Part shown: positions 8,536 to 61,687 of the stretch, piece after piece
Layout of the letters: each line of letters opens with the position of its first letter
How positions within the stretch are numbered: position 1 is the stretch's first letter
Source: Bifidobacterium breve
Lineage (GTDB): Bacteria; Bacteroidota; Bacteroidia; Flavobacteriales; Flavobacteriaceae
Assembly: GCA_943323545.2 (NCBI GenBank)
Contig: CALPIE020000002.1
Coordinates: forward strand, 1-62,429
DNA length: 62,429 nt
Direction: 5' to 3'
Notes under the pieces: generated by a model
Told to the model about the DNA's origin: nothing
The model's input: the letters and a program-made list of their open reading frames with translations, nothing else
The model's database searches: none
Translations under genes and position numbers: made by a program

Positions 8536-8608
<73 letters not shown>

Positions 8609-9653: not shown

Positions 9654-9932
9654 AGCCTCGTCTTCCGCTCTGAAAATCCTAAAACTTTTTTGTTTTAGGA
9701 TTTTTTATTTTATAGTAGTGGTTAGAAGTTTATCCCGATGGCTATCGGGAAGCCTCGTCTTCCGCTCTGAAAATCCTAAAACTTTTTTGTTTTAGGATTT
9801 TTTATTTTATGGTAGTGGCGAGAAGTTTATCCCGATGGCTATCGGGAAGCCTCGTCTTCCGCTCTGAAAATCCTAAAATTTTTTTTAGGATTTTTTATTT
9901 TATGGTAGTTGCTAGAAGTTTACTTCCGCTCT
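9654..9932 (+). repeat. 97-bp tandem repeat carrying tRNA-Gly 3' end + terminator hairpin + CCCGATGGCTATCGGG palindrome
   Basis: Units start at 9654, 9751 and 9848 (97-bp period), last unit truncated before CTTCCGCTCT at 9923. Confidence 0.9.
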
Positions 9933-25458: not shown

Positions 25459-25713
25459 TTGTAATAGAAGATTTAAATTTTCGTACAGTATATTTGCAAA
25501 AATAATAAAAATAAAAACTAAAAGCTATTGTCTTTCTGAGCTTGTCGAAGGAAGAAGCTATTTCCAGCTTTTTGCTGCAATCTTTTCAATTTTGAAAGGT
25601 TTTTCTAAATAAAAAAGTAGCTTCCTTTGGTCGCTCATTTTTATCAAGTAAAACCAAATCAAAATAAAAAAAGTATTTTCGCTTCAATCTGGGCTAAAAA
25701 CAAAATATTACCA

Positions 25714-45442: not shown

Positions 45443-45465
45443 ACAATTAAGGAATTTGGATTTAG

Positions 45466-45496
45466 GATTGCTTCGCCAGTTCGAGCAAAGCTCTCG
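45466..45496 (-). repeat. Short dispersed module, 31 bp identical to 48114-48144 (inverted)
   Basis: Reverse complement CGAGAGCTTTGCTCGAACTGGCGAAGCAATC. Confidence 0.9.
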
Positions 45497-45551
45497 GGTT
45501 GGGAATTTTTTAAATCCTAAATATTTAAATCCTTAGTCCTAAATAAAAAAT

Positions 45552-47160: not shown

Positions 47161-47820
47161 TTAGGAAATTAATTTTTTCAAATCAGTAATAGTTTGTGTA
47201 GGGTTTGTAGCTTTAAAAACAAAATTTCCAGCAACTAATACATCAGCACCAACATTAACCAATTGAAGTGCGTTTTTATCGGTTACACCACCGTCAATTT
47301 CAATTAGTGTTGTAGCATTGTTTCTGGTTATGATTTCCTTTAATTTTTCTATTTTAGAATAGGTGTTTTCAATAAATGATTGTCCGCCAAAACCTGGATT
47401 TACACTCATGATACAAACCATATCAATGTCTTTTATAACGTCCTCTAACAAATTTACATTCGTATGTGGATTTAAGGCAACTCCGGCTTTCATTCCTTCT
47501 GCTTTTATGGCTTGTAAGGTTCTATGAAGATGTGTACAAGCTTCATAATGAACCGTAAGTATATTGGCTCCCAATTGTGAAAAAGTTTTAATATAACGAT
47601 CTGGATCGACAATCATTAAATGAACATCGATGGTTTTTTTGGCATGTTTAGTAATTGCTTCTAAAACGGGCATTCCGAAAGAAATATTTGGAACAAATAC
47701 ACCATCCATGATGTCAATGTGAAACCAGTCGGCATTAGAGTTATTAATCATTTCGATGTCGCGTTGGAGATTGGCGAAATCGGCGGCTAAAATAGAAGGT
47801 GCAATTATTGTATTTTTCAT
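47161..47820 (-). CDS. rpe: Ribulose-phosphate 3-epimerase
   Basis: IAPSILAADFANL, HIDIMDGVFVPN, MSVNPGFGGQSF. Confidence 0.96.
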   Translation of the reverse strand: MKNTIIAPSILAADFANLQRDIEMINNSNADWFHIDIMDGVFVPNISFGMPVLEAITKHAKKTIDVHLMIVDPDRYIKTFSQLGANILTVHYEACTHLHRTLQAIKAEGMKAGVALNPHTNVNLLEDVIKDIDMVCIMSVNPGFGGQSFIENTYSKIEKLKEIITRNNATTLIEIDGGVTDKNALQLVNVGADVLVAGNFVFKATNPTQTITDLKKLIS

Positions 47821-48046: not shown

Positions 48047-48212
48047 AAAACTCCGGACCCGAGCCAAAGGCGAACAGAGCGAAGCTAAATCAGCCGGAGT
48101 TTCAATCATCACACGAGAGCTTTGCTCGAACTGGCGAAGCAATCAAAAAAGCAGTTTTTTGGTTGATGATAAAAAGCAAAACTCCGGTAATCAGCCGGAG
48201 TTTCAATCATCA
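48047..48212 (-). repeat. Duplicated CTCCGG terminator-like hairpin; first copy carries two 30-nt modules, second is 'empty'
   Basis: AAAACTCCGG...CAGCCGGAGTTTCAATCATCA at 48047 and 48178, differing by 30 nt at each of two places. Confidence 0.85.
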
Positions 48213-48278
48213 ATCAAAAAACGAACAGTTTTGAAACTGTTGTTGCGGTTTTAGTTTCACACTGAACTTGTCGAAGTG

Positions 48279-49142
48279 TTACCCTAAATACGTTTTCAAG
48301 ATTTTACTTCTTGAAGTATGTTTTAATCTGCGAATTGCTTTTTCTTTAATTTGACGAACTCTTTCTCGAGTTAAGTCGAATGTTTCACCTATTTCTTCTA
48401 ATGTCATAGGATGTTGGTCACCAAGTCCAAAATACAAACGAACTACATCAGCTTCTCTTGGTGTTAAGGTTTCTAAAGAACGTTCGATTTCGGTACGCAA
48501 TGATTCGTGAATTAATTCTCTATCTGGATTTGGAGATTCACCCGAACGCAAAACGTCGTATAGGTTAGAATCTTCTCCTTCAACAAGTGGCGCATCCATA
48601 GACAAATGACGTCCTGAATTTTTCATTGACTCTTTTACGTCATTCACAGTCATGTCTAGCTCTTTTGCAATTTCTTCAGCTGAAGGCGGACGTTCATTAG
48701 ATTGCTCTAACAAAGCGTACATTTTATTGATTTTATTTATAGAACCAATCTTATTCAAGGGTAAACGAACAATACGAGATTGTTCTGCTAATGCTTGAAG
48801 AATAGATTGGCGAATCCACCAAACCGCATAAGAAATGAATTTAAAACCACGCGTTTCATCAAAACGTTGTGCGGCTTTAATTAAACCTAAATTTCCTTCG
48901 TTAATTAAATCCGGAAGTGTAAGGCCTTGATTTTGATATTGTTTTGCAACGGATACCACGAAACGCAAATTGGCTTTTGTTAATTTTTCTAATGCACGTT
49001 GGTCACCTGCTTTGATTTTCTGAGCTAATTCTACTTCTTCGTCAGCAGTAATCAAATCAACTTTTCCAATTTCTTGTAGGTATTTGTCTAAGGAAGCAGT
49101 TTCACGATTGGTTACCTGCTTGGTGATTTTGAGCTGTCTCAT
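48279..49142 (-). CDS. rpoD: RpoD-family primary-type sigma factor
   Basis: Sigma-70 regions 1.2-4.2: [50 protein letters not shown]. Confidence 0.93.
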
Positions 49143-51568: not shown

Positions 51569-51838
51569 TTATTTTCTAATACCTAATTCTTTAATTATCT
51601 CACGATATCTATTGATATCTTTTTTCTTCAAGTAATCAAGAAGACTTCTTCTTTTTCCTACCAAAAGAACTAATGAACGCTCGGTATTGTAATCGTGACG
51701 ATTTTTTTTCAAGTGCTCAGTAAGGTGAGTAATTCGGTGTGTGAACAATGCAATTTGTCCTTCAGCAGATCCTGTGTTTTCTGCTTTTCCTCCGTGTTTA
51801 GCGAAGATTTCTGCTTTAACTTCTTTAGTTAAGTACAT
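51569..51838 (-). CDS. rpsO: 30S ribosomal protein S15
   Basis: GSAEGQIALFTHRITHLTEHLKKNRHDYNTERSLVLLVGKRRSLLDYL. Confidence 0.97.
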   Translation of the reverse strand: MYLTKEVKAEIFAKHGGKAENTGSAEGQIALFTHRITHLTEHLKKNRHDYNTERSLVLLVGKRRSLLDYLKKKDINRYREIIKELGIRK

Positions 51839-51944
51839 GCTAATATTATTTTAAATGATTATTATGTATGAATTACGATTTTCATAATTCGTGTGCAAAG
51901 GTAATTTTATTTTTTAAATAGGCAAATAAAAAGAGGAGGTTAAC

Positions 51945-61584: not shown

Positions 61585-61687
61585 TGATTAAGCCCAAGCC
61601 AATGCTTCGCCAGTTCGCTCTGCTCGTGCCGCTTCAAATAAAGAAAGTTATCTAAAACGATCCCGAAACTTCGGGACAGATTAAACA

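Follow-up and report, generated by a model that had tools for sequence, protein, structure and literature searches.

The 62,429-nt stretch analyzed here (hereafter the window) carries the sigma factor gene rpoD, whose 287-residue product has 100% identical matches in many relatives, followed downstream by two versions of its terminator and then by a putative rpe gene, so named in the original prediction, which also follows rpoD in relatives (Table 1). As that prediction held, the stretches 48047-48150 and 48178-48221 are two copies of one segment, each with the same 24 nt at its core (AATCAGCCGGAGTTTCAATCATCA, at 48088 and 48189). Measured to a common end point, the filled copy is 104 nt long vs. 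44 nt for the empty copy, and the 60-nt difference falls in two places, located as predicted in the terminator loop (48057-48086) and just after the hairpin (48111-48140). The empty copy reads AAAACTCCGG TAATCAG CCGGAGTTTCAATCATCA ATCAAAAAA, the piece in the filled copy's loop is ACCCGAGCCAAAGGCGAACAGAGCGAAGCT, and the piece after its hairpin is ACACGAGAGCTTTGCTCGAACTGGCGAAGC. The claim that each piece adds exactly 30 nt was borne out in full for the second only, which is exactly 30 nt long with ends ambiguous by 2 nt (48112-48141 is equivalent), while in the loop 31 nt stand against 1 nt, i.e., a net 30 nt plus one substitution, or 29+1. The predicted kinship of these pieces to others in the window was also recovered, with 45461-45499 forming a 92% inverted copy of 48111-48149, and a further relative on the reverse strand at 61604-61629.

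Table 1 Features of the rpoD terminator region and further element copies in the window
Feature	Coordinates	Strand	Description and basis
putative rpe	47161..47820	-	3' of the terminators; ORF and translation; also after rpoD in relatives
Filled copy	48047..48150	-	additional terminator copy, downstream, holding two inserts; same arrangement in genome G157 (L090)
Element copy in terminator loop	48057..48086	+	ACCCGAG-CCAAAGG-CGAACAG-AGCGAAGCT, net 30 nt; common to G157
Element copy beside hairpin	48111..48140	+	ACACGAG-AGCTTTGCT-CGAACTG-GCGAAGC, 30 nt; common to G157
Empty copy	48178..48221	-	hairpin and flank of the ancestral rpoD terminator in its short form, which adjoins rpoD in relatives having the terminator
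rpoD, sigma factor	48279..49142	-	upstream gene, owner of the terminator; ORF
Further element copy	45470..45499	-	flanked by an ORF and a tRNA gene; ACCCGAG-AGCTTTGCT-CGAACTGGCGAAGC
Further element copy	61604..61629	-	26 nt; GCACGAG-CAGAG-CGAACTGGCGAAGC

Comparing the rpoD regions of relatives revealed that the long form is not uniform among them, with several carrying the short form only (L101, L107, L110, L113, and L115). On the rpoD strand the short form reads GAAACTCCGGCTGATTACCGGAGTTTT, and in the rpoD regions compared it adjoins rpoD wherever the terminator is present; terminator copies with inserts are confined to extra copies farther downstream, with elements sitting in their loops, repeatedly so in some species (L106, L108, L109, and L112). 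Because the short form is thus the old terminator in relatives, both inserts are gains in the extra copy rather than losses, as the original prediction had favored. Its description of the insertion as recent fails for this pair, because a second genome (G157, locus L090) has both inserts at the same sites as the window; most simply, both were gained before the window genome and G157 split. The likely order of events would be duplication of the terminator first, followed by entry of one element into the extra copy's loop and of another into the adjacent sequence. Many Flavobacterium species carry the rpoD terminator in tandem multiples (L090, L091, L098, L099, L105, L106, L108, L109, and L112). 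Element-like hairpins occur in the loops of those extra copies, some of them without the GCGAAGC hairpin and with the terminator arm at their end (GTC[AT]GTTCG-hairpin-CTCGGGT).

Within the window's own genome, the pattern GAACTGGCGAAGCAATC occurs 33 times at up to 2 mismatches, vs. 0 occurrences of the reversed pattern. Searching more widely with the exact pattern CGAG-N3-14-CGAAC-N1-5-GCGAAGC, and with its reversal as control, we found copies in 93 of 121 Flavobacterium genomes, with 646 exact-pattern copies vs. 2 for the control and a maximum of 43 in one genome (G016); genome-wide counts from such pattern searches are lower bounds. An order-wide sample placed copies in 22 of 26 genomes of the same genus and in 4 of 25 from the family's other genera, with matches beyond the family at control level except for one genome with 7; the named carriers among the matches listed are Flavobacterium, F. 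johnsoniae included. These counts, along with the clean filled and empty sites described below, support the predicted dispersed short mobile module. The richest genome, G016, additionally contains short tandem arrays of the element with ~40-nt spacing (L172, L173) as well as variants with longer hairpins and CGAACGG, and a collection of viral contigs holds 13 stretches with the element (L402-L414), which may be phage or host DNA.

The element has the consensus ACYCGAG-[hairpin 1]-CGAACWG-[GCGAAGC hairpin 2] and is inserted at G^AA, often G^AAATC (where ^ marks the junction). Across 188 copies with flanks, the left side carries G in 143, A in 174, and C in 181, followed by C, T or A, and the right flank is AA, with the second A present in 183. 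Length ranges from 26 to 34 nt and is set mainly by hairpin 1, with 105 of the 188 copies at 27 nt, 28 at 30 nt, 21 at 34 nt, 13 at 32 nt, 12 at 26 nt, and a few at other lengths. This table rules out the fixed 30-nt quantum on which the original prediction was built, and the window's own genome exhibits none either, its inserts being 30 nt in 9 copies, 27 nt in 5, and 26 nt in 5 (n = 19 copies with extracted flanks). Hairpin 1 occurs as 65 different sequences, of which CGATAG is the commonest, and its pairing is conserved, with a mean of 1.51 inner pairs vs. 0.43 when shuffled (maximum 0.71 over 1000 shuffles). Among copies with a longer hairpin 2, 24 have A-T as the additional pair, 15 have T-A, and 4 have something else, and the third base co-varies partly with the base after CGAAC (A with T in 30/33, T with A in 31/40). 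Predicted folding energies of single copies were unremarkable.

We also identified precise insertions by comparing filled with empty sites inside genes. For instance, the dapB site reads AGTAATG^AAATCC when empty (L256) and AGTAATG[ACTCGAGCAATAGCGAACAGGCGAAGC]AAATTC in a filled relative (L252), a gain of exactly 27 nt at AATG^AAAT with no target duplication between the two. A dapB tree calculated with the insert removed requires two or more changes there; the site has been re-used, with at least two independent gains. In uvrA, the window genome spans 119 nt vs. 92 nt in 15 other genomes, G157 included (+27), again with target duplication absent, and in mtaB it spans 240 nt per 213 nt of query (+27), vs. 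85-86 nt per 85 in 11 relatives inspected, which lack the insert. Among the genomes compared, the uvrA and mtaB inserts are present only in the window genome, and these two copies are more recent than the rpoD pair.

Copies lie in frame within dnaE, rho, ftsY, secA, rlmF, trpF, and other genes, mostly encoding approximately SDSEQAKQ. Counting all forms, the proteins with copies include Rho, UvrA, MtaB, FtsY, RlmF, ClpP, DapB, DnaE, SecA, TrhO, TrpF, and YceD, as well as a rhomboid and a TPM protein, with other reading frames used in a few cases (e.g., MtaB and TrpF); G^AA is the target in 33 of 39 coding copies. Among the genome records fetched, 15 exact CGATAG copies fall within ORFs of at least 130 aa, and all of these share the same strand and frame, encoding approximately DSSDSEQAKQ, although 5 of the 6 frames of this form are open. 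Such single-frame use is in keeping with selection for a hydrophilic peptide that can be tolerated. Lengths divisible by three are found in 29 of 32 same-strand coding cases vs. 92 of 127 non-coding copies, an excess that by itself argues only weakly in the same direction because so many non-coding copies are divisible as well. Alignments with solved structures, which are less precise than the nucleotide pairs, are consistent with insertion, with UvrA showing a gap of 11 residues where the insert lies and DnaE splitting there into two aligned stretches. In Flavobacterium housekeeping proteins, the element accounts for unexpected insertions of 9-10 residues, which bear on annotation, phylogenies, and structural studies and can serve as rare indel markers.

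Between genes, 92 of 121 exact copies fall in four larger palindromic repeat contexts, mainly GTCATTTCGACGAAGGAG^AAATC (55) and ATCTG..^AAATCTG (25), a proportion that applies to this subset, selected for AAA on the right, and not to all forms. Since these contexts also commonly occur empty, the larger repeats (GTCATTTCGACGAAGGAG..., ATCTG...) could themselves be the real mobile units, with the element rarely moving alone. We regard this as unlikely, as clean 27-nt gains occur in genes without any surrounding repeat and the G^AA junction is identical in genes and repeats, although the spread of larger palindromic repeats may explain part, and even much, of the copy number. The larger Flavobacterium palindromic families that frequently host the element (L282-L401) are GTCATTTCGACGAAGGAG; AATCTGC...AAATCTGCGTG; AATTCGTG...AAATTCGTGGC; and CGGATTTGCC...AAATCATCCC. 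A terminator or RNA role as a general function was rejected on the near-even orientation of intergenic copies relative to neighboring ORFs (54/46 upstream, 47/53 downstream).

From these sequence comparisons, we conclude that the inserts are probably copies of a very small, non-autonomous Flavobacterium mobile repeat with a fixed frame, a hairpin 1 of free sequence, a GCGAAGC hairpin 2, and a G^AA target. At 27 nt, the unit is too small for a gene of its own. The covarying stems around a fixed frame, the lack of target duplication, and the G^AA target suggest that what moves is a single strand in folded form, with a factor acting in trans: judging by pairing patterns only, the moving unit may be a folded strand of DNA or RNA, recognized via the CGAG/CGAAC frame, that a host enzyme or another one would insert in trans at G^AA. 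Most copies would then be selfish or neutral passengers, and those in genes may survive since the usual frame yields a short hydrophilic peptide, approximately SDSEQAKQ. We found no mobilizing enzyme, with Y1 transposases and reverse transcriptases each absent from some copy-rich genomes. More speculatively, and with considerable doubt on our part, this could be a genus-wide ~27-nt element, among the smallest translated mobile DNAs, whose folded single strand is spread by an enzyme or pathway new as a transposition system, with essential proteins gaining SDSEQAKQ-like peptides of nine residues.

Y1 transposases occur commonly in Flavobacterium, and a REP-type sequence moved by Y1 (IS200/RAYT) transposases via a single-stranded intermediate would suit both the hairpin structure and the absent target duplication; copy number also correlates with Y1 count when genome size is controlled (partial rho 0.27, p = 0.003), weakly and with kinship ignored. 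However, 30 Y1 loci lack exact copies within ~1.5 kb and share other palindromes instead (TCCCTAACGGGA, GGTAG), 21 genomes have copies without a Y1 match (including G016 with its 43), and 15 have Y1 without copies. Given this negative adjacency test and the weak correlation, we rejected Y1/RAYT mobilization, to which we assign a low probability. The flanks of Flavobacterium Y1 (IS200-like) genes (L061-L085) carry palindromes of their own, TCCCTAACGGGA and GTCCCTACGGGA, together with GGTAG motifs, and are probably a separate REP family. Movement through RNA, with a small element transcript reverse-transcribed and then inserted, would suit the covarying hairpins and what may be a tandem G-A internal loop, but appears quite improbable, as the copy-rich genomes G042, G097, G075, and G110, some of them single-contig, have no RVT_1 match, and a reverse transcriptase was rejected as the mobilizer for this reason. 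Finally, loss of two pieces from the short copy, with the long form ancestral, had been conceivable from the window alone and was named as the alternative in the original prediction, but it is contradicted by the short terminator adjoining rpoD in relatives that have the terminator and, as a general account, ruled out by the gains in uvrA, mtaB, and dapB as well, leaving it barely credible.

The small mobile repeat that we favor has partial counterparts elsewhere. Rickettsia palindromic elements (RPEs), of 105-146 bp, are found both in intergenic positions and, in frame, within conserved protein genes (PMC2229807). The Flavobacterium element is likewise in frame in conserved genes (DnaE, UvrA, DapB, FtsY, SecA, and others), but it is 26-34 nt long with two short hairpins, unlike RPEs with their 105-146 bp, long stem-loop, and terminal inverted repeats, and its host genus is free-living. 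GTAG- and CGTC-tagged REPs are short dispersed hairpins, some of them intragenic (including in uvrA/uvrB of other bacteria), and CGTC REPs, which lack a dedicated transposase, are defined by a CGTC tag (or TGTC/CCTC), one 8-9 bp stem, and a CCA tail (PMC3733652). Some element copies are intragenic as in CGTC REPs, but the element has a CGAG frame and two shorter hairpins with no CGTC tag; unlike GTAG REPs, with a tag at one end and a single palindrome, it reads ACYCGAG...CGAACWG...GCGAAGC; unlike tagged REPs, its hairpin 1 is free in sequence; and unlike RAYT-mobilized REPs, its copies do not flank Y1 genes (30 loci, ~1.5 kb), where other repeats are found.

Cyanobacterial small dispersed repeats (SDRs), including SDR5, which is similar in size to our element, were reportedly described by Elhai et al. 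in 2008. SDR5 inserts precisely, including inside another repeat, HIP1 (PMC4390886). The likeness to SDRs, drawn by description only, is that of a very small dispersed module with precise insertion and known empty sites, but in another phylum and with another target than SDR5. Yeast mitochondrial GC clusters are tiny GC-rich palindromes that spread in an AT-rich genome without an enzyme of their own (PMC4478555), as the element does in being tiny, palindromic, and without its own enzyme, but they are organellar with a putative AG target duplication, whereas no duplication was detected here. The element also differs from a MITE of a DDE transposon, as its ends (ACY...GAAGC) are not inverted repeats and the dapB and uvrA pairs lack target-site duplication. 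It therefore belongs with the very small mobile repeats, but by the features tested is not a member of the RPEs or tagged REPs. Our search of openly licensed literature found no paper on its DNA motif or peptide, nor anything on this element among work on Flavobacterium repeats. Flavobacterium offers a free-living, cultivable genus for studying very small mobile repeats, with clean filled and empty sites, a defined target, and covarying structure, and the mode of movement is a question also posed by CGTC REPs, SDRs, and GC clusters.

A known RNA family was rejected, since Rfam gave no match at the element copies tested (45470-45499, 48057-48140, and 61604-61629, at gathering score). Elsewhere in the window, Rfam matched a Flavo-1 RNA (25557-25699, reverse strand) and an S15-Flavobacteria leader (51836-51903, reverse strand). 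We additionally observed three tandem ~97-nt copies of a tRNA 3' end with a terminator-like segment at 9654-9922, preceded by a related tRNA 3' segment at 8564.
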